Shown: piece after piece, positions 16,943 to 34,446 of the stretch
Layout: every line of letters starts with the position of its first letter
How positions within the stretch are numbered: the first letter of the stretch is position 1
Source of the DNA: Caldimonas manganoxidans ATCC BAA-369
GTDB lineage: Bacteria; Pseudomonadota; Gammaproteobacteria; Burkholderiales; Burkholderiaceae_C
Reading direction: 5' to 3'
Length of the DNA: 38,798 bases
NCBI RefSeq assembly: GCF_000381125.1
Contig: NZ_KB905956.1
Span: 1-38,798 of the forward strand
Made by a program: the position numbers and the translations under genes
The notes under the pieces: generated by a model
The model's input: only the letters and a program-made list of their open reading frames with translations
Databases searched by the model: none
Told to the model about the DNA's origin: nothing

Positions 16943-16975
16943 GGGGCCGGCCTTGTGCCGGCCCCTTGTTTTTGT
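16943..16975 (+). terminator. Intrinsic terminator of the ribosomal cluster
   Basis: GGGGCCGGC (16943-16951) pairs with GCCGGCCCC (16957-16965) around a CTTGT loop and is followed by TTGTTTTTGT. This is a textbook Rho-independent terminator and closes the alpha operon after rplQ. Confidence 0.92.
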
Positions 16976-16982
16976 ATGGGCC

Positions 16983-17013
16983 TCTTTGGAGGGGCCGTCT
17001 TTGGAGGGGGCCG
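16983..17013 (+). repeat. Two tandem copies of a 15-16 bp repeat
   Basis: TCTTTGGAGGGGCCG (16983-16997) is followed directly by TCTTTGGAGGGGGCCG (16998-17013), the second copy having one extra G. They lie between the rplQ terminator and the ABC transporter gene, about 60 bp upstream of the latter. Role unknown; slippage is a sufficient explanation. Confidence 0.8.
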
Positions 17014-17073
17014 GTGGGCGGCAATGGCCGTCTGCGGGCGAGGAATCCGGCTCTTTGGCACACTGGCAGGTCT

Positions 17074-18009
17074 ATGTCCGCCTCGTCTCCGTCTGCGCCG
17101 CTGTTTGCCGTCGAGCACTTGGTCAAGCGTTACAACGGCCACACGGTGGTCGATGGCCTCAGTTTCGAGATCCGCGCTGGGGAATGCTTGGGCGTGATCG
17201 GGCCCAACGGGGCCGGCAAGACGACGACGATCCGGATGTGCCTGGGGCTGACGGCGCCGCAGTCCGGGCGCATCACGGCGTTTGGGATGTCGGTGCCCGA
17301 GCGGCTGAGGGAGATCAAGCAGCGCTTGGGCGTGGTCAGCCAGTTCGACAGCCTGGACCCGGATTTTTCGTGTGCGGAGAACTTGATCGTTTTCGCGCGC
17401 TATTTCGGCTTGCCTGGCGCCGTGGTGGCGCAGCGAGTGCCGATGTTGTTGCAGTTTGCGGCGCTGCAATCGAAGGCACAGGCCAAGCCGGCGGAGTTGT
17501 CCGGCGGCATGCGGCGACGCCTGAGCTTGGCACGGGCCTTGGTGAATGACCCGGACTTGCTGCTGCTGGATGAGCCGACCACGGGGCTGGACCCGCAGGC
17601 GCGCCACTTGATGTGGGAGCGGCTCAAAGAGTTGCTGCAGCAAGGCAAGTCCATCCTGCTGACGACCCATTTCATGGACGAGGCCGAGCGTTTGTGCGAT
17701 CGGCTCATCGTGTTGGACCATGGGCGCAAGATCGCCGAGGGCACGCCACGCGGCTTGATTGCCGAGCATTTGGAGTCCGATGTGATCGAGGTGTATGGCC
17801 AGGGGGCGCGGCAGGCGGCACAGCAGCTCCAGCCCTTGTGCGAGCGGGTCGAGCGCAGCGGGGAGACCACGTTTTTGTATGTGAACCGGCCGCAGCCGGT
17901 GTTGCAGCGCTTGGCCGATCTGGCTGGGGTGAGATACCTGCATCGTCCTGCCAATTTGGAGGATCTGTTTCTCAAGCTCACGGGGCGGCAGATCCGCGAC
18001 GATGCCTGA
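17074..18009 (+). CDS. ABC exporter ATP-binding protein, NodI-like
   Basis: This 311-aa protein is the ATPase of an ABC-2 type exporter. Walker A is GPNGAGKT (residues 43-50), the signature is [15 protein letters not shown], Walker B is [12 protein letters not shown], and the H-loop is in [15 protein letters not shown]. The C-terminal region with residues shared with NodI-type ATPases ends in [14 protein letters not shown]. The ATG at 17074 lies 98 bp after the ribosomal terminator. The permease partner follows after 21 bp. NodI/NodJ exporters carry lipo-chito-oligosaccharides in rhizobia, but homologues in non-nodulating betaproteobacteria have no established substrate, so no cargo is assigned. 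Confidence 0.92.
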
Positions 18010-18030
18010 CTTCATGAGGTCTGCCGAATC

Positions 18031-18816
18031 ATGCCCGAATCGTTTTACGCGCCGCCTCGGCTGAGCCGCCGTGTCTGGCCGGTGGTGCAGCGGAATTTGT
18101 TGGTTTGGCGCAAGCTGGCCGTGCCGAGTCTGCTGGGCAACATTGCCGAGCCGTTGATCGTGCTGGTGGCCTTTGGCTATGGCTTGGGCGCGTTGGTGGG
18201 CGAGGTGCAGGGCTTGCCTTACATCGTGTTTCTCGCCTCGGGCAGCATTTGCATGAGCACGATGTATGCGGCTTCTTTCGAAGCGCTGTACTCGGCCTTT
18301 TCACGCATGCATGTGCAAAAGACCTGGGACGGCATCATGAATGCCCCGGTGAGCTTGGACGACATCGTGTTCGCCGAGATGTTGTGGGCGGCGCTCAAAG
18401 CGTTGTTTTCGGCCGTGGCGATCGCCGCGGTGTTGATCGCGCTGAACATCAGCCGTGCACCGACCCTGCTGTTGGCGGTGCCCTTGCTGTTCGTGGTGGG
18501 GATCACGTTCGCCTCGGTGGCCTTGGTGTTCAATGCGTTGGCTCGCAACTACGATTTCTTCACGTACTACTTCACCCTGGTGCTCACGCCGATGACCTTC
18601 CTGTCCGGGGTGTATTTCCCGCTGGAGCAATTGCCGCCGGTGTTGCAGTCGGTGGCCAGGGTGTTGCCGCTGACGGCGGCGGTGGAGATCGTGCGCCCGT
18701 TGGTGGTGGGCCAGTGGCCGGCCGACTGGGGGCGGGCGCTGGCGGTGTTGGGCCTGTACGCCGCCGGGGGCTACTATGTGGCGCTGGTGATGACGCGCCG
18801 GCGCTTCTACCGTTGA
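18031..18816 (+). CDS. ABC-2 type exporter permease, NodJ-like
   Basis: This 261-aa inner-membrane protein has about six hydrophobic segments and the ABC-2 permease pattern. The N-terminal cytoplasmic part contains VWPVVQRNLLVWRKLAVPSL; the conserved late motif PMTFLSGVYFPLEQLPPVLQ precedes the last transmembrane segments. It pairs with the ATPase gene 21 bp upstream. The positively charged end (MTRRRFYR) is expected in the cytoplasm. Substrate unknown. Confidence 0.92.
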   Translation: MPESFYAPPRLSRRVWPVVQRNLLVWRKLAVPSLLGNIAEPLIVLVAFGYGLGALVGEVQGLPYIVFLASGSICMSTMYAASFEALYSAFSRMHVQKTWDGIMNAPVSLDDIVFAEMLWAALKALFSAVAIAAVLIALNISRAPTLLLAVPLLFVVGITFASVALVFNALARNYDFFTYYFTLVLTPMTFLSGVYFPLEQLPPVLQSVARVLPLTAAVEIVRPLVVGQWPADWGRALAVLGLYAAGGYYVALVMTRRRFYR

Positions 18817-25654: not shown

Positions 25655-27034
25655 ATGGCACTGAACGTCGTCATCATGGCCGCGGGGCAAGGCACCCGCA
25701 TGAAATCCTCGCTGCCCAAGGTCTTGCATCGGCTGGCGGGGCGAGCCCTATTGCAGCATGTGATCGACGCGGCTGCACGTTTGCAGCCGGATCGCCTCAT
25801 TGCCGTGGTGGGTCATGGGGCCGAGCAGGTGCGCTCGGCGATGGCGCAGGCGGCCGAGGGCCTGCGCTTCGTGCTGCAGCAGCCGCAGTTGGGCACCGGC
25901 CATGCGGTGCAGCAGGCGGTGCCGGAATTGCTCGAGCCAGGCACCACATTGATTCTCAATGGCGATGTGCCGTTGATCGAGGCGGAAACCGCGCGTGCCT
26001 TGGTGGCGGCCTGCGATGGACGCCGTCTGGCCTTGCTGACGGTGCATTTGGCCGATCCCACCGGCTACGGCCGCATCGTGCGTGAAGGGGCGGCGGTGCG
26101 TGCCATCGTGGAGCACAAGGATGCCAGCGCGTCGCAGCGGGAGATTCGAGAGGTGTACACCGGCATGATGGCCGCGCCGACGGCGCACCTGAAGCGCTGG
26201 CTGGCGCAACTGAACAACGACAACGCCCAGGGGGAGTACTACCTGACCGACGTGGTGGCCCTGGCGGTGGCCGAGGGCGTGGAGGTGGTGGCTGCCCACC
26301 CGGCCGATGAGATCGAGGTCTTGGGGGTCAACAGTGCGGCACAGCTGGCGGACCTGGAGCGCCGCTGGCAACGCCGCCAGGCCGAGCGCCTGATGGGCGA
26401 GGGGGTGCGTTTGGCCGACCCGGCCCGCTTCGATGTGCGTGGCCGCCTGAGCTGTGGGCGGGATGTGGAGATCGATGTCGGCTGTGTGTTCGAAGGGCGT
26501 GTGGTGCTGGGCGACGGCGTGCGCATCGGGCCGTATTGCGTGATTCGCAATGCCGAGATCGCCGCCGGCGCGGTGATCCATGCCTATACCCACATCGATG
26601 GGGACGCCCAGGGGGTGAAGGTGGGGGAGGCGGCGCTGGTGGGGCCGTTCGCTCGGCTGCGTCCAGGCACCGAGCTGGGGCCGCAGGTGCACATCGGCAA
26701 CTTCGTGGAGGTGAAGAACTCGACCTTGGCGCGTGGCGCCAAAGCCAATCACTTGGCGTATCTGGGCGATGCCACCGTGGGGGAGCGGGTGAACTACGGC
26801 GCCGGCAGCATCACCGCCAATTACGATGGCGCCAACAAGCACCGCACGGTGATCGGCAACGACGCGCATGTGGGGAGCAATTGCGTGCTGGTGGCGCCGA
26901 TGACCGTCGGTGAGGGGGCGACCATCGGGGCCGGCAGCACCTTGTCGAAGGATGCACCGGCAGGCCAGCTCACCGTGGCGCGCGCCAAGGCGGTGACGGT
27001 GGCGGGCTGGCAACGGCCGCGCAAAACCCCGTGA
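25655..27034 (+). CDS. glmU: Bifunctional GlcNAc-1-P uridyltransferase / GlcN-1-P acetyltransferase
   Basis: GlmU (459 aa) makes UDP-GlcNAc, the precursor of peptidoglycan and lipopolysaccharide. The N-terminal pyrophosphorylase domain has the nucleotide motif [18 protein letters not shown] (residues 8-25) and the metal-binding LNGDVPLI. From about residue 250 a left-handed beta-helix of hexapeptide repeats follows, including [20 protein letters not shown] and the acetyltransferase region [19 protein letters not shown]. The start at 25655 ([11 protein letters not shown]) matches the family; an upstream ATG-like start at 25619 is not conserved. glmS, for the first step of the pathway, lies 5.5 kb downstream in the same direction. 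Confidence 0.97.
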
Positions 27035-27249
27035 GCGCCAAGCCGCCGATCGATACCAGCCGTTGCCCTTTGTGTGGCGGGCCCAACGGCTGCGCGATGG
27101 CCGCGCCGGCGCAGGCCCCGACGCCTTGTTGGTGCACCCGGGTGAGGTTCCGGGCCGAGACTTTGGCTCGCGTGCCGCAGCCCTTGCGCCGGCGGGCTTG
27201 CATTTGCTGCCGCTGCGCCGAGGTTCAGGACGAGGCGGGCGCCGACTGA
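27031..27249 (+). CDS. Small cysteine-rich CWC-family protein
   Basis: This 72-aa protein starts with GTG at 27031, overlapping the glmU stop by four bases. It contains [13 protein letters not shown], then the CWC triplet in [12 protein letters not shown] that names the family, and a second cluster CICCRCA near the end. The cysteines suggest metal binding (zinc or iron-sulfur), but no function is established. Its 3' end overlaps the end of zur on the opposite strand by 25 bp. Coupling to glmU suggests co-expression, not a shared role. Confidence 0.82.
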
Positions 27250-27740
27250 CAGGCTGCGCACAGCCCTTTGATCTCGATGTCCATGGCGCGAAAGCCGGGG
27301 GCATCGGTCTGCAAGGCCCGGCCGATGGCCTCGGTGGCCGCCGGGTCGTGCACTTCGGTGACCTGGCCGCACCGCGAGCACACCAGCATCATCGTATGCT
27401 CATGGGGATGATCGTGGGGCTGCGGGTCGAGGTTGCAGACGACGAAGCAGTTGAGGGTGTCCACGCGGTGCACCAGCTGCTGCTCCATCAGGAATTCCAG
27501 GGCTCGGTAGACGGTCGTGGGGGCGACCCGGCCGTGGCGTTGGCGCAGGTCGTCTTGCAGGTCGTAGGCTTTGGCGCTGCCGTGGCGCAGCAGCAGCAGC
27601 TCCAGCACTTCGCGGCGCAAGGCCGTGAGTTGGGCCCCGCGCGCGGCGCACAGGGCCTCGGCGCGATCGAGGCGGCGCGAGACCTCGGCGGGGCTGGGGC
27701 GGGCGGACGAGGCGTTCGTGGAAGCGTTCGTGGGACTCAC
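27225..27740 (-). CDS. zur: Fur-family zinc uptake regulator
   Basis: This 171-aa protein is a Fur-superfamily repressor, assigned to Zur by context. The winged-helix region is AQLTALRREVLELLLLRHGS through VAPTTVYRALEFLMEQQLVH. The dimerisation/metal domain has the His-rich HDHPHEHTMMLVCSRCGQVT with one CxxC and a second CxxC in KGLCAACQ, which together form the structural zinc site. The start is GTG at 27740, overlapping the permease stop as GTGA. As the last gene of the zinc operon it would regulate itself through the palindrome at 31868-31887. Confidence 0.92.
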   Translation of the reverse strand: MSPTNASTNASSARPSPAEVSRRLDRAEALCAARGAQLTALRREVLELLLLRHGSAKAYDLQDDLRQRHGRVAPTTVYRALEFLMEQQLVHRVDTLNCFVVCNLDPQPHDHPHEHTMMLVCSRCGQVTEVHDPAATEAIGRALQTDAPGFRAMDIEIKGLCAACQSAPASS

Positions 27741-28507
27741 GCATCCAGTGTAGCGCTGCCCTGGCGGGCTGGCGGCTTGCGCCGGCCCAGGGCCGCCAGT
27801 CCACCGGCGGCCATCAGTGCCAGCACGATGCAAGGACCGCTGGGCAAGTCCCAGTGCAGCGAGGCCCATAGGCCCGCCGCATAGGCCAAGGTGCCCAGGC
27901 ACACGCCGGCCCAGAGGGGGCCGCGCAGGCCGGCCACGGCCAGTGCCGGCACGATGAGCGTGGCGAACACGAGGTACAGCCCCAGCAGCGGCACGGACAA
28001 GCTGACCAGCACCGCAAAGGCTGGGTAGAAGGCCGGGCCGTTCCACAGCGAGGCCCCAGCCCACCGTTGCAGCAGCAGGAACACGGCCGTGGCTGCGGCC
28101 AGCACTGCCAATTGCTGCGGCAGCACCCACAGCACGTCGCCGGCGAGCGCGGCGGCGAGTTTTTGCCCCCCATGCGGGTCGGCGCTGACCCACAGCAGTG
28201 CAGCCACGGCGGCGCCCACATAGACCAGGCCGATGAGGGCCTCGCGCCGCTGGGGCCACAGGCGGCTGAGCATGGCCACCCCGGCGGCCCCGAGCAGCGC
28301 GGCCAGGCCACCGGCGAGCGAGGAGACGATGCGGTCTGCGCCGGTGAGGGTGTCGGCCATCAGCACGCCCAGGGCTGCCACCTGGGCCACGGCCAAGTCG
28401 ATGAAAACGATGCCGCGGCGCAGCACTTGCAGGCCCAGCGGCACGTGACTGAGCAAGACCAGCACGCCGGCGGCCAGTGGCCAGCCCAGCACGGACAGTT
28501 CGTTCAT
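27737..28507 (-). CDS. znuB: Zinc ABC transporter permease, ZnuB/AztB-like
   Basis: This 256-aa inner-membrane protein has about eight hydrophobic segments and ABC-3 family motifs: HVPLGLQVLRRGIVFIDLAV near the N-terminus, GLVYVGAAVAALLWVSADPH in the middle, and YPAFAVLVSLSVPLLGLYLV followed by FATLIVPALAVAGL in the coupling region. It starts with ATG overlapping the end of the binding-protein gene (ATGA). The ATPase that should energise it is not encoded next to it. The gene symbol follows ZnuB by family; AztB would be equally fitting given the aztD-like gene. Confidence 0.92.
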   Translation of the reverse strand: MNELSVLGWPLAAGVLVLLSHVPLGLQVLRRGIVFIDLAVAQVAALGVLMADTLTGADRIVSSLAGGLAALLGAAGVAMLSRLWPQRREALIGLVYVGAAVAALLWVSADPHGGQKLAAALAGDVLWVLPQQLAVLAAATAVFLLLQRWAGASLWNGPAFYPAFAVLVSLSVPLLGLYLVFATLIVPALAVAGLRGPLWAGVCLGTLAYAAGLWASLHWDLPSGPCIVLALMAAGGLAALGRRKPPARQGSATLDA

Positions 28508-29448
28508 CGAGTTCGAGCCTCCGATGCTCGCAGGGCGTCCAAGAGCTGGTCGATCAACTCGTCGAACAGCCCTTCGAGGGTGGCGCTGCGCCCTTGCTCG
28601 GTGACGGTGGCTGGCAAGACCTTGAGCGGCAAGCCGGTGCGCGCGGCCAGCCATCGGCCGGCCTGAGGGTCTTGGTAGCTTGCTTGCACGATGAAGCGTG
28701 GCGGGTCCTCGGCCACGTCCTTGAGCACCCGCTGCAGATGCGCCAGCGTGGGCGGCAAACCGGGCTTGGGTTCCAGGTCGGCCACCTGGGTGAGCCCCAG
28801 CCATTCCCACAGGTACGCAAAGGTGGTGTGTTGGGCCACCAGGGCGTGGCCCATCAGCGGCTCGGCCTTCTTTTCCCAGCGGGCGATGTGTTGATCCCAT
28901 GCCTGGACCCAGGCCGCGTGGCGCTGGCGCACACCCGCGGCGTCGGCGGGGTCGATGCGCGCCAGGCGGTCGGCGAGGGCCTGGGCGACTTGCTTGAGCT
29001 TGTGCGGGTCGAGGTGCAAGTGGGGGTTGCCCTCGGCATGCACGTCACCCAGGCTGCGGTCCAGGGGCGTGTGGGCGTGGTCGTGCATCAGCGTCACGTG
29101 GTCGGCCGCGTAGAACATGACGTCGCGACCGTCGAACACGCGTGCATGGCCCGCGCGCTGCTGCAGCATGGGCAGCCAGCCGGCTTCCAGCGAGGCGCCG
29201 GTGCACACGGCCATATCGGCACGGCGCAGCGCCCCGATGAGCGCGGGGCGAGCCTCGATGTGATGCGGGTCTTGCAGCGCGTGCGTGGCGCTGGTCACGC
29301 GCGCCTGTGGGGCCAGGGCCTTCACCAGCGCGGCCCATTCGGGCTCGCAGGTGAACACTTCCAGCGCTTGCGCCGCCGGCGCGGCCAAGAGGCAGCCCAG
29401 CACCGCCGCCGCCCAGCGGCGCATCCGTTCAGAAACCGTGCGCACCAT
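28504..29448 (-). CDS. znuA: Zinc ABC transporter substrate-binding protein, ZnuA/AztC-like
   Basis: A periplasmic cluster A-I metal-binding protein (314 aa). The signal peptide is RRWAAAVLGCLLAAPAAQA. Likely metal ligands are H62 or H63 (DPHHIEARP), H143 (GNPHLHLDPH) and H207 (AQHTTFAYLWEWLGL), with an acidic residue near D260 (ASYQDPQAGRWLA). The His-rich flexible loop of ZnuA is reduced to a short HDHAH at about residues 122-126. AztC-type proteins also have a short loop and receive zinc from AztD, which fits the operon. The ATG at 29448 has a GGGAG Shine-Dalgarno and overlaps the barrel gene by 20 bp; ATG 29424, four bases after the upstream stop, is an alternative. Confidence 0.9.
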   Translation of the reverse strand: MVRTVSERMRRWAAAVLGCLLAAPAAQALEVFTCEPEWAALVKALAPQARVTSATHALQDPHHIEARPALIGALRRADMAVCTGASLEAGWLPMLQQRAGHARVFDGRDVMFYAADHVTLMHDHAHTPLDRSLGDVHAEGNPHLHLDPHKLKQVAQALADRLARIDPADAAGVRQRHAAWVQAWDQHIARWEKKAEPLMGHALVAQHTTFAYLWEWLGLTQVADLEPKPGLPPTLAHLQRVLKDVAEDPPRFIVQASYQDPQAGRWLAARTGLPLKVLPATVTEQGRSATLEGLFDELIDQLLDALRASEARTR

Positions 29449-30574
29449 GGGCTCCCAGACTCATCACGTATTGCAGTTGCACGCTGTGAGCGGCGTCTTG
29501 GAAGCCGCCACGGTCGCGCTGGCCGGTGAGCTGCAGGCGCAGCGCCGAGAAGTGGGTGGGCTTCCAGGCCAGCATCGCGCTGGCTTCGCGCAGGCGGCCG
29601 CTGTGGAAGTGGTCGCCATGCGGCTCACGCACGCGCAGCTGGTCCACGCGCAGGCCGGCTTCCCACTGCGGCGCGAAGCGGTACACCACCGAGAGATAGC
29701 CGGCTTCGTGCACATCGCCGGAGCGGGCGAACTCGTTGAGCTCGCTCACACGCGCGTACTCGGCCGAGACACGCAGCTGCCGCTGGCGGTTGTTGCCAGC
29801 AGGGGCCCATTTCCACACCGCATCGGCGATCACGAGATGGCGTCCGCCGAACCGGCTGCCATGGGCATGGTCATGGTCGTGATCCGGGTCGGGGTCTTCC
29901 TCCTCCATTACCGCCTTGCGCCGGTTGTGCAGGTAGGACAGGCCCAGTTGCCAGCTGTGCGAGGCATTCCAGTCGCCGCCGATCTTGGTGCTGGCGGTGA
30001 AGGCGCCGGCGCGCGGATCGTGGGTCGATGCCGGCACGAGCTGGCGGCCGCCCAGCACCTCGACGGTGGAGCGCCAGTACAGGCGCGTGGGGGCCGTCCA
30101 GCTCAGGCGCAGCCCGTCGTCGAAGTAATGCCCCCCCAGGAAGGCGCGGTAGAGCAAGGGGCGCTCGACGAAGTCGTCGGCATGGACATGCTGCTCGTTC
30201 AGGTAGCCCAGGCTGGCCAGGAAGCGGCCCGCACGCACCTGCACGCCGGCTGGCAGCGTGGTCGTCTCGAGGTAGGCCTCTTCGAGGTCCAGTTCGGTGT
30301 CGCCCTCGTGGCTGTGCAGCACGGCGGTCGCGCGGGCCTGGAAGAGGGTGTCCACGGCACCGGCCAGGCTCAACTCGTTGTGGCCGAGGCCGAAGCCCCG
30401 CTCGCGCTGGCCCAAGGCCAGTTCGCGCGAGCTGAAGGCGCCGTCGAGCACCAGGCCCAGCTCGAAGTTCGAGACGGTGGGCGGGTTGGCCGGCGTCTGC
30501 GCCCACACGGGGGTGCCCAGGCCGGCGGCCGCCAGGATCAGCGGTGCGATGCGGTCAATGCGCATGGTTGTCAT
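29429..30574 (-). CDS. Outer-membrane beta-barrel protein with His/Asp-rich segment, zinc locus
   Basis: This 381-aa protein has a signal peptide (RIAPLILAAAGLGTPVWAQ) and alternating amphipathic strands with many aromatic girdle residues. It ends in phenylalanine, the usual outer-membrane insertion signal. Near residue 230 there is an acidic and His-rich loop, EEEDPDPDHDHDHAHGS, and further His clusters occur in EQHVHADD, REPHGDHFHSG and the terminal GAHGAHGF. No TonB box or plug domain is visible, so it looks like a porin-type channel rather than a TonB-dependent receptor. It lies between the chaperone and binding-protein genes with overlaps at both ends, so a role in zinc passage across the outer membrane is the simplest inference. 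Confidence 0.78.
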   Translation of the reverse strand: MTTMRIDRIAPLILAAAGLGTPVWAQTPANPPTVSNFELGLVLDGAFSSRELALGQRERGFGLGHNELSLAGAVDTLFQARATAVLHSHEGDTELDLEEAYLETTTLPAGVQVRAGRFLASLGYLNEQHVHADDFVERPLLYRAFLGGHYFDDGLRLSWTAPTRLYWRSTVEVLGGRQLVPASTHDPRAGAFTASTKIGGDWNASHSWQLGLSYLHNRRKAVMEEEDPDPDHDHDHAHGSRFGGRHLVIADAVWKWAPAGNNRQRQLRVSAEYARVSELNEFARSGDVHEAGYLSVVYRFAPQWEAGLRVDQLRVREPHGDHFHSGRLREASAMLAWKPTHFSALRLQLTGQRDRGGFQDAAHSVQLQYVMSLGAHGAHGF

Positions 30575-31838
30575 GTCGTTCGATGCCCACCCAGGTCAGC
30601 AGCGTGGGGTTGAAGTTCAAGGCAATGGGGGTAGCCAAGGTGGCCGTGTCCAGGTCGACGACCACGATGCGCGCGCCGTTGGGGTCGCTCAGGTAGGCGC
30701 GGTTGGCGGCGCGGTTCACCGCGATGGCAGGGAAGGGGGCTGCCGTGGGCATGCTGGCGATGGCCGGCAGCCGGGCGCGCACGGCCCAGCCGGCGTGGCC
30801 GTCGAGCAGGTGCAGCGTGCCCTAGTCGTCCAGGATCAGCAGGTGGCGGCCTTGGGCGTCCATGGCATGCGCGCGGCGGGTGCGGCCCTCGGCCCAGTTG
30901 ATGCGGGTGAGGGTGCCGGCCACCGGGTCGATGTCGAAGAAGTGGCCGGGCGAGGCGATGCCGATGAAGGTGCTGCGCTCGGGATGACCGAGGATCGTGC
31001 CGATGCGCGCATCCACCGGCATGTCATCCGGGTTGGGCAGCTTGCGGGTGCTGAAGCTGCTGCCGTCCTGCGTGACGATGAGCACGCCGTCGGTGCAGCC
31101 GAAGGCGCTGTGGCTTTCGTTGGAGTAGCTGCCGTGCAGGCCGGGGCAGGCTTCCTCGAAGCGCTGCACGAAGCTGTAGCCGCTGCCGTTGCGCTGGTAG
31201 AGCTCCACCTGGCTGGGCAGCGTGCTTTGGCTGCCAGCTTCGCGGTAGGTGGTGAGCAGGAAGTTGCCGCGCGGCTCGGCCGTGCCATGCATCGCGCGCG
31301 GCAGGGTCAGCGAAGCCAGGGCTTGCCGCGCGGCGATGCTGGCGTCGGTGAGGACCACGACCTGCGCCGGCAGGCTGCTGGCCTCCAGGCCGTCCATGAA
31401 GAAGGCGGCCAGACCGTCATGCGCTTGGTAGTGGGTGGGCCGCACACCGGGGAGGCGCCAGTCCAACAGCGCCGGATTGCGCTTGTAGTCGTGCAGGTGG
31501 TCGCCATGGTCTTCCTGGTAGATGCCGCCGTCGATCACCTGCACCTGGTCCTGCGTGCGCTGCACGGCCAGGGCGTAGCGGTGGCTGGGGCTGCTGTACA
31601 GGGCGGAGGGGGCGTGGTCCAGCGTGTAGTTCTGCACCACGTTGCCGCCGTCGAGGTCGAGCACACGCACCGTGGTGCTGCCATCGGCGATCACCAGCCG
31701 GCCCAGGGTGTCGACGTGGTGCTCATCGTCATGGTCGTCGCCGTGGCTGCCGCCACCGCAAGCGGCCAGCAGCAAGGTGGCCGACAAGGCGGCCGCCAGC
31801 CACCGACGACGGGGGATGGGGGGATGGGATGGGGTCAT
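30555..31838 (-). pseudogene. aztD: aztD-like zinc metallochaperone gene interrupted by an in-frame TAG
   Basis: The reading frame opens at ATG 31838 after a strong GGAGGAAG Shine-Dalgarno. The product has a lipoprotein-like signal (WLAAALSATLLLAAC) and then an acidic/His-rich segment (SHGDDHDDEHH), as in AztD, the periplasmic beta-propeller that hands zinc to AztC in Paracoccus. Propeller-like repeats follow (LGRLVIADGSTTVRVLDLDG, HRYALAVQRTQDQVQVIDGG). After 338 codons a TAG at 30822-30824 stops it in HLLILDD; the same frame continues for 88 sense codons (GTLHLLDGHAG to IERHDNHAH) with propeller-like sequence (NRAYLSDPNGARIVVVDLDT) and a natural TGA at 30555-30557. A CAG-to-TAG change is the simplest cause. 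It may be a real mutation, a sequencing error or a readthrough stop; I label it a pseudogene provisionally. Confidence 0.75.
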
Positions 31839-31867
31839 GCGGCTTCCTCCAGTCGAAAATCGATGGA

Positions 31868-31887
31868 TGCAATGTTATAACATTGCA
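31868..31887 (-). promoter_or_regulatory. Perfect 20-bp palindrome, probable Zur operator
   Basis: TGCAATGTTATAACATTGCA is its own reverse complement. Its core, AATGTTATAACATT, resembles the Zur boxes of proteobacteria (E. coli consensus built on GTTATA and TATAAC half sites). It lies 29 bp upstream of the aztD-like ATG, in the 87-bp gap after the Lrp gene, and contains a TATAAC -10-like hexamer, so repressor binding would block transcription. With zur at the far end of this operon, autoregulation is expected. Confidence 0.8.
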
Positions 31888-31925
31888 ATCAAGAGGCGCC
31901 GCGCAGCTCGGGGCGACCGCGGGGC

Positions 31926-32426
31926 TCAGGCCGAAGGAGGGGGGAGGTTCAGCGCAGGTTCAAACTTTGCTCGCTTCACAGCGAAGTAGGCCTTCACATT
32001 GCGCACGTTCGCATCGTTGGTGAACAGGCGCTGCGCCAGTGCGTGGTAGGCGTCCATGTCGCGCACCTGGATCACCAGCACGAAGTCGGGTCCGCTGCTG
32101 ACGCGGTAGCACTGCTGCACCTGGGGCTCGGCCACGGCACGGGCTTCGAAGGCGGCCAGGCGTTCGGCGGCCTGCTGGTCCAGTGTGATCTCGACGATGG
32201 CCGTGAGCCCGGCCCCCAACCGCTCGGGCGACAGCAGGGCCACGCGCCGCTCGATCACGCCCGCTTCCACCAGACGCCGCACCCGGCGCAGGCAGGTGGC
32301 CGGCGACACATGGCAGCGCTGCGCCAGGGCTTGGTTGCTCAAGGAGGCATCCCGCTGCAGCTGATCGAGCAGGCGCAGGTCGATCGCGTCCAGGGGGATG
32401 TGAGGGAGGGTGGCGAATGAATCCAT
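31926..32426 (-). CDS. Lrp/AsnC-family transcriptional regulator
   Basis: A 166-aa feast/famine regulator. The N-terminal helix-turn-helix covers LLDQLQRDASLSNQALAQRC and VSPATCLRRVRRLVEAGVIE; the C-terminal RAM ligand-binding domain follows, with QQCYRVSSGPDFVLVIQVRD and a final basic stretch NVKAYFAVKRAKFE. Such proteins usually sense amino acids and often control an adjacent gene; the neighbour read divergently is glmS (139 bp between starts). The ATG at 32426 is chosen over a TTG three bases earlier. It is upstream of, and collinear with, the zinc operon but separated from it by the Zur-like site. Confidence 0.92.
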   Translation of the reverse strand: MDSFATLPHIPLDAIDLRLLDQLQRDASLSNQALAQRCHVSPATCLRRVRRLVEAGVIERRVALLSPERLGAGLTAIVEITLDQQAAERLAAFEARAVAEPQVQQCYRVSSGPDFVLVIQVRDMDAYHALAQRLFTNDANVRNVKAYFAVKRAKFEPALNLPPPSA

Positions 32427-32565
32427 CAAAATACGATTAGAAAAGATAGATTATTGCATCTTGAGGATATGATGTCTTGATCGTTCATAACATGTTTATA
32501 AACGCAAGAAAATTTCTCATCGCCTTGTCTAGCATGCCGACATCCCTTGTTTACGGAGCTCGTCC
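32427..32565 (+). promoter_or_regulatory. AT-rich divergent control region of lrp-like gene and glmS
   Basis: This 139-bp gap is notably richer in A and T than its surroundings. A TATAAA hexamer at 32497-32502 is a possible glmS -10, with TTGATC at 32477-32482 as an imperfectly spaced -35. ATAACATGTTTAT (32488-32500) is a near palindrome centred on ACATGT that could bind a dimeric regulator such as the divergent Lrp-like protein. No glmS ribozyme is present, as expected outside Gram-positive bacteria. Confidence 0.35.

Positions 32566-34446
<1,881 letters not shown>

Follow-up and report, generated by a model that had tools for sequence, protein, structure and literature searches.

How could a zinc importer of the ATP-binding cassette (ABC) kind operate when no gene for its ATPase accompanies it? 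The question is raised by an operon on contig NZ_KB905956.1 of Caldimonas manganoxidans ATCC BAA-369; the entire contig, 38,798 nucleotides long, is the window of this study, and the source genome has a completeness rating of 100%. Behind a Zur-box-like operator, the operon carries an aztD-like frame, genes for a porin-like outer-membrane barrel, a ZnuA-like binding protein and a ZnuB-like permease of the ABC-3 family, and the regulator gene zur. Our comparisons revealed that the novelty of this locus is the barrel-ZnuA-ZnuB trio without an ATPase, which is widespread. The trio, we conclude, forms a family of its own among importers that descend from ABC transporters and depend on a binding protein, and its members probably work without ATP; we consider it about evenly balanced whether the operon itself encodes a zinc importer of ABC ancestry that is independent of ATP.

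The initial annotation had stated that no ATPase is encoded in or beside the operon, and both parts of this statement were confirmed. The only match to the AztA model on the window contig was a NodI-like gene (16966-18009, + strand) located beside a NodJ permease gene, which ruled out an ATPase hidden near the operon. These two genes form a NodI/NodJ-like ABC-2 exporter pair (16966-18816, + strand). The operon holds the only ABC-3 permease and the only ZnuA of the window genome. No ZnuC was detected in this genome at E<=1e-45 and no AztA-model match at E<=1e-46; when all 124 candidates were scored, the best AztA-model score was 139.7 bits (cut-off 220). In other genomes, AztA-like ATPases reached 199-225 bits with this model, and five of the eight ZnuC genes scored 161-172 bits. 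Among eight of the ten best matches in the window genome, CysA-, nitrate- and BtuD-like sequences were recognised by eye. A cognate ATPase was thus not found in the operon or, at these thresholds, in the genome, which leaves room for an ATPase of another family.

Two explanations had been offered for this absence, namely that a ZnuC or AztA is supplied from elsewhere or that the ATPase of another importer is shared. Neither was upheld, because the genome lacks both ATPases at these thresholds, holds no other ABC-3 permease or ZnuA, and encodes a permease without the docking segment described below; borrowing from a second zinc importer in the window genome was rejected, at the same thresholds, for the same lack of a further permease, ZnuA or AztA. 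A separate complete znuABC, which could have made the locus redundant, was likewise not found in the window genome, whereas G039, a genome of the same genus (genomes and loci are given G and L numbers), has a complete canonical importer divergently adjoining its ATPase-less operon (L115, 479-4354, - strand), with an AztA-like ATPase, a permease carrying the coupling-helix motif, a ZnuA and a COG0523 gene. No ZnuC- or AztA-type gene lay inside the operon in the loci of relatives that were read.

A search with the ZnuB-like protein returned 288 relatives, and the best 80 of these 288, some clipped by contig ends, were analysed. The canonical comparison set comprised 15 ABC-3 permeases out of 12 genomes that also carry the ATPase-less family. 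L097 was retained as canonical (its ATPase was not seen, at a contig edge), L110 and L111 were reassigned to the ATPase-less family on the basis of their residues, and L112, which has a FecCD-like look and a linker also of 73 residues, was excluded from the canonical counts and trees. The ZnuB-like protein has the ABC-3 permease fold; PF00950 aligns to it as two separate segments and skips the middle, and when a profile built from 80 members of the family was aligned with the solved ZnuB 9oko_B, the gap fell at the same place. We examined the linker between the helices matching BtuC helices 6 and 7, which we take to hold the coupling helices in type II importers. Measured from anchor to anchor, this linker comprised 51-60 residues in 81/81 family members (the window and 80 relatives) and 73 in 15/15 canonical permeases, most of which carry a motif like fDpelaqveGv, so that the family linker is about 19 residues shorter. 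Another 25 sequences (three repeats) divided into 20 with a linker of 49-55 residues and 5 with one of 65-70, and 14/14 additional ones (one repeat) had 52-56; L114, L119, L120 and L203 repeat places already counted, and the znuB frames of L176 and L184 are broken. A coupling helix, placed by alignment, was not found in the ZnuB-like permease. The role of this helix, rather than its position, is described for the related PsaBC and MntBC in the accessible part of PMC11779740.

The membrane site was also altered. An Asp-His-Asp metal triad in the membrane is described in the accessible part of PMC8487065, and we matched it to the family by motif. The canonical permeases have D in 13/15, H in 15/15 and D in 15/15 at these positions. 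The family permease lacks the triad: Leu38, Gln42 and Glu89 occupy its positions in 81/81 members each, together with a new Asp37 (81/81), and His21 is usual beside Asp37, Gln42 and Glu89.

In a first tree, seven permeases with longer linkers (L110, L111, L119 and L178-L181, L119 repeating the place of L110) formed a branch sister to the other 101, with support values of 0.656 for the branch and 0.798 for the rest. This branch retains a degenerate form of the segment, and no ATPase was seen nearby. Three of its members (Limnobacter L110, L111 and L119) are a second family permease with no barrel or ATPase seen nearby, and L119 adjoins a distant ZnuA-like gene. A second tree with 14 more sequences separated the 15 canonical permeases from 122 family members (four repeats) with a support of 0.999 for the unrooted split. 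A competing split, which set the canonical permeases and a six-member subgroup against the rest, had a support of 0.968, and midpoint rooting let L190-L193, L200 and L201 fall with the canonical permeases. Since both splits are present, the branching order is unsettled. These six form a diverged subgroup that has D37, Q42, E89 and a short linker; their barrel is low-scoring in four and missing in two.

Among 32 family-bearing genomes, 12 (G003, G015, G016, G017, G019-G022, G025-G027 and G029) also had a strong full-length canonical ABC-3 permease and 20 did not; some of the 20 gave weak partial matches, assumed to be FecCD-type permeases, and G004 and G006 hold a second family member. The ZnuC model, applied at the same threshold as above, matched in 8/12 genomes with a canonical permease, and the two models together in 11/12; in the twelfth, G016, the canonical permease lies close to a contig end. 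None of the 20 genomes lacking a canonical permease (0/20) had a ZnuC- or AztA-type ATPase, with up to 57 candidates per genome scored in the ZnuC screen and up to 53 in the AztA screen. Within these 32 genomes, the zinc ATPase therefore goes with the canonical permease rather than with the ATPase-less family. G198, a 1.9-Mb genome rated 95% complete, contained 20 open reading frames (ORFs) with PF00005 domains. Eighteen of them were typed, and all best fit other families, many under the curated cut-off: FtsE, LolD, YbbA/LolD-like, LptB, MlaF, CcmA, SufC, MsbA, an MsbA-like exporter, type I secretion, Dpp/Opp, PstB-like, PotA/PhnT-like, Wzt/teichoic-acid-like, three DrrA/Gld-like and one ABC-F. 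The two ORFs outside the typing, L168 and L169, each carry a pair of ATPase domains and presumably match ABC-F proteins in size.

The trio recurs in the relatives. The barrel was present in 74/80 and ZnuA in 79/80 of the related loci, and invariant residues occur in all three proteins. When evenly drawn genomes were surveyed with the family permease profile (match at E<=1e-20, own genome included, a few matches partial or broken), 60/232 genomes of the class and 32/299 of the phylum gave a match. ABC-ATPase ORFs occurred anywhere in the available DNA of 12/80 loci, and at a distance of 1 kb or less on the same strand in 1/80, namely L072, where the ORF is part of a ZrgA/MacB-type ATPase/FtsX-permease set. 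Typing, attempted in 10 of the 12 loci (L060 and L063 were left out), gave an AztA-like ATPase in L016 (220.1 bits), GlnQ-like in L048, CcmA in L032, MsbA in L092 and the LolD/FtsE/DevA kind in L029, L033, L041, L054 and L072; no family was assigned in L068 at E<=1e-32. Ten further loci among the relatives of the window genome yielded one ATPase, in L115. In 17 loci from 16 hand-picked genomes of the 60 class hits, ATPase ORFs were present in L177 and L186 only, the latter a 593-aa ORF 850 bp upstream that lacks a family assignment; 14 loci, 13 of them out of 12 of the 32 phylum hits, had no ATPase ORF. The ORF in L177 overlaps a C-terminal ZnuB remnant of about half a permease, near which no ZnuA or barrel was found, and was not counted. 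Both the barrel and ZnuA stood beside ZnuB in 16/17 class loci and 12/14 phylum loci (L192 and L200 lack the barrel). Only a minority of loci, then, have an ABC ATPase near the trio, and those that were typed suit other transporters; a missing ATPase is the general pattern and not a local deletion. A tblastn search of a plasmid collection with the permease gave no match.

Several other genes recur near the trio. ZrgA, a MacB-type ATPase and an FtsX permease lie directly 3' of it at L072:6718-9275, and ZrgA is also nearby in L029, L041, L060 and L063. A gene for an Fe/Mn superoxide dismutase is located upstream in 4/80 loci (L025, L026, L042 and L087). A small exported-looking His/CxxC protein is encoded just upstream of the barrel, for example at L018:3293-3610; it forms a BLAST cluster of 19 loci (10 by phmmer), and the one member tested had no Pfam match.

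The Zur box and the zur gene support the assignment of the window locus to zinc. As initially annotated, five - strand frames follow one palindromic operator and overlap by 20, 20, 4 and 4 bp (30555-30574, 29429-29448, 28504-28507 and 27737-27740; Table 1). None of 100 shuffles gave such a palindrome (0/100), and the operator is the sole site in the genome when three or fewer mismatches are allowed in its inner 18-mer. The window contains both a Zur box and, inside the operon, a Zur-type protein, in agreement with the proposed Zur control; Zur binding is predicted from the sequence. A near-identical box stands directly ahead of the barrel gene in Caldimonas caldifontis, where the aztD-like gene was not found, and a Zur-like gene is also located 3' of znuB in L014, L015, L086, L113-L116 and L182. 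The barrel-ZnuA-ZnuB unit occurs in 4/9 genomes of the genus, own counted. An Rfam scan of 26000-33500 gave no match.

Table 1. Features of the zinc operon in the window
Feature	Position	Strand	Description
Zur-box-like operator TGCAATGTTATAACATTGCA	31868..31887	.	Perfect 20-bp palindrome, 29 bp ahead of the aztD-like start codon
aztD-like gene, 5' part, 338 codons	30822..31838	-	Lipoprotein-like start, His-rich; ends at in-frame TAG 30822-30824
aztD-like frame, 3' part, 88 codons and a TGA	30555..30821	-	Aligns with intact relatives
Porin-like outer-membrane barrel	29429..30574	-	About 16 strands, no plug domain, OprP/OprO-like fold (model), His-rich loop, C-terminal LGAHGAHGF
ZnuA/AztC-like cluster A-I metal-binding protein	28504..29448	-	PF01297 125.2 bits
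ZnuB-like ABC-3 permease	27737..28507	-	PF00950 47.2 bits; without the coupling-helix segment; D37, Q42, E89 signature
zur, Fur-family zinc uptake regulator	27225..27740	-	NF008646 113.6 bits (curated cut-off 167), PF01475 47.2 bits, GTG start

The aztD-like gene behaved differently from the trio. Its frame is interrupted by a TAG at codon 339 of 427, and the protein matched AztD NF038015 with 85.7 bits, below the curated cut-off of 400. Downstream of the TAG, the frame retains its alignment to intact relatives and a third-position GC content (GC3) of 0.90, suggesting that the stop arose recently by nonsense mutation or is an error of sequencing. The first 20-bp overlap consequently involves a stretch of frame to which translation should not normally extend; the end-to-start overlaps behind the proposed translational coupling hold for the last four genes, and the aztD-like frame is not one open frame. 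Uninterrupted copies occur in L016, L116, L117, L182 and L086. The initial annotation had seen the main novelty in the pairing of an AztD-like chaperone with a porin, and this view was not sustained, given that the gene is broken in the window, was detected in 3/80 related loci and was not found in the three same-genus operons L113-L115. Its absence from those operons suggests that the AztD-like protein is not essential to the unit. Genome G079 holds two versions of the unit (L182 and L183), one with AztD-like and Zur-like genes and one without either.

The identities assigned to the other proteins were supported. The window barrel gave no Pfam or NCBIfam match at E<=0.001, and its model contains 17 strand pieces, two of which were joined; with a limit of E<=0.1, 16/61 related barrels matched the porin-2 family of beta-barrels in Pfam, the best at 5.5e-9. 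On the basis of the modelled fold and these matches, the protein is a porin-like outer-membrane barrel. The znuA/aztC-like and znuB/aztB-like genes are identified by their Pfam matches, and the operon accordingly contains the cluster A-I substrate-binding protein of an ABC importer. His 62, 143 and 207 of the ZnuA-like protein are invariant in 62/62 aligned sequences and line up with motifs that contain His in a zinc-binding protein of solved structure.

Because the unit keeps the parts of a zinc importer except those related to ATP, we propose binding-protein-dependent import without ATP. Under zinc shortage, Zur would leave the palindrome and the operon would be transcribed. Judging from its fold, the porin-like barrel would admit zinc, perhaps as small complexes, across the outer membrane; the ZnuA-like protein would bind the metal through its three conserved His and hand it over to the ZnuB-like permease. 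This permease would have descended from the ABC-3 family by losing the cytoplasmic coupling helix and the ATPase and altering its membrane site, and it may alternate access as a binding-protein-dependent facilitator or a proton-coupled carrier, driven presumably by the membrane potential and tight zinc binding in the cytoplasm. We infer transport by the unit, zinc as the substrate of every member and independence of ATP from sequence comparison. The new conserved residues and wide spread point to a function, and Zur control points to uptake. It falls somewhat short of an even chance, in our estimation, that a class-wide family, amounting to approximately a quarter of the even sample, abandoned ATP to become, together with a porin and a metal-binding protein, a new type of binding-protein-dependent metal importer, secondary or facilitated, and that the degenerate-segment branch (65-70 residues) records the transition.

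Several observations weigh against import without ATP. The coupling helix was located by alignment, motif and analogy with BtuC and ABC-3 structures and not by coordinates, and an ATPase could dock elsewhere on the ZnuB-like permease. Other ABC ATPases are plentiful (87 AztA-model matches in the window genome), and draft assemblies can miss genes. Among 16 further genomes (own included), 6 had an AztA-model match: G035, G039 and G055 at 205-225 bits, and G082, G452 and G423 at 160-167 bits, which is the ZnuC range, with the family not assigned; G035 is of the same genus and G055 of the same family, and both have an AztA-like ATPase, whereas G037, like the window genome, has none at E<=1e-46. 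Some members stand beside complete or partly seen canonical importers, as in L115 and in Chitinimonas, where a canonical ATPase and permease follow the ATPase-less operon (L016 with L095), and genomes with a canonical importer could in principle share its ATPase. The permease may still be driven by ATP, with a non-dedicated ABC ATPase of another family docking at a remodelled site, much as MsmK serves several sugar importers. We consider this unlikely, as every main-branch member has a shortened docking segment, ZnuC- and AztA-type ATPases go with the canonical permease, and the typed ABC-ATPase ORFs of G198 best fit other families. Moreover, the canonical and ATPase-less permeases of such genomes differ at the docking segment, and a canonical importer beside the ATPase-less operon may equally reflect a division of labour. 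A zinc route outside the operon exists in the form of a ZIP-family gene, of which the window genome has one and which is present in all 9 same-genus genomes tested. Genome G011, a Methylotenera with a unit of the L028 type, showed neither a further ABC-3 permease nor an ATPase in the ZnuC/AztA range, and it gave no ZIP match.

The altered membrane site raises further doubts, since a triad changed in this way might point to another substrate or to an absence of transport. The ZnuB-like protein might serve as an anchor in the membrane, as a store of metal or as a sensor, acting together with the periplasmic binding protein and importing nothing into the cytoplasm; the triad and coupling helix are both important for ABC metal import and are changed or gone, and yet we regard this as quite unlikely. 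The Zur box, the zur gene and neighbouring zinc genes speak for the import of zinc, but for most members of the family this support is weak: a strict Zur-like box within 500 bp ahead of the barrel was found in 7/71 loci (0.3 expected from a control in which letters were shuffled inside 50-base blocks), and such boxes are scarce beyond the window's branch and the Marinobacterium loci. Most hosts might therefore import another metal (copper, cobalt or manganese), with zinc confined to the Zur-linked branch around the window; the superoxide dismutase and CxxC/His genes upstream at some loci fit this idea. Opposed to it are the zur/fur, COG0523 or ZrgA genes that neighbour the trio at 22/80 loci (a raw count), box-like sites farther upstream in five more loci (L016, L023, L038, L043 and L086), the three His retained by ZnuA and the zur gene and box of the window branch, and we judge it improbable to a slightly greater degree. 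Very improbable, finally, is a decaying AztABCD remnant that has lost its ATPase and chaperone. The premature TAG, the aztD-like gene missing from three same-genus operons and the patchy occurrence in the genus would suit a remnant; decay in the window is nevertheless confined to the aztD-like gene, and the class-wide spread of the permease family together with the invariant residues of the trio indicates that the ATPase loss is not recent.

Known systems resemble the proposed importer in part. ZnuABC-type zinc import needs ATP hydrolysis. The window operon shares with ZnuABC and the ABC-3 family (ZnuB, PsaC and MntC) a ZnuA-type binding protein, the permease fold and Zur control, but it lacks ZnuC, its coupling-helix segment is shortened, its triad has changed from D-H-D to L-Q-E with a new Asp, and it includes a porin. 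It resembles AztABCD of Paracoccus denitrificans in its AztC- and AztB-like proteins, Zur control and, in some members, an AztD-like chaperone; it differs in the missing AztA and the added porin, and all its best scores lie below the model cut-offs (AztB 47.8 of 280, AztC 63.4 of 350, AztD and AztA as given above). OprP and OprO are phosphate and pyrophosphate porins, whereas the window barrel, 13-14% identical to them, is tied to a zinc operon. ZrgABCDE-type genes also serve zinc uptake and adjoin or neighbour the trio through ZrgA, but that system is a MacB/FtsX-type ABC system with its own ATPase and an unrelated permease. If our proposal is right, the unit would resemble tripartite ATP-independent periplasmic (TRAP) transporters in binding-protein-dependent transport without ATP; these have unrelated membrane subunits and fold and carry organic acids, not metals. 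Energy-coupling factor (ECF) S-components have their own fold and no periplasmic binding protein. As the membrane part of an ABC-type importer, solitary S-components offer a precedent for working without an ATPase, since some mediate transport without the ECF module according to the accessible part of PMC4820897. In the open-licence PubMed Central (PMC) literature, to which the search was confined with subscription papers outside its scope, we found no description of an ATPase-less barrel-ZnuA-ZnuB system and no wording for an absent znuC; the accessible parts of PMC6103462 and PMC10563805, which cover zinc starvation and the Zur regulons of other species, do not mention such a set.

If the proposal is true, an ABC transporter would have turned into a secondary carrier while retaining its binding protein. 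The need for the ATPase in ABC transport would then be testable, because canonical, intermediate and ATPase-less permeases could be compared, sometimes within one genome. Some genomes that would be annotated with a zinc ABC transporter would, in that case, have one without a recognisable motor.

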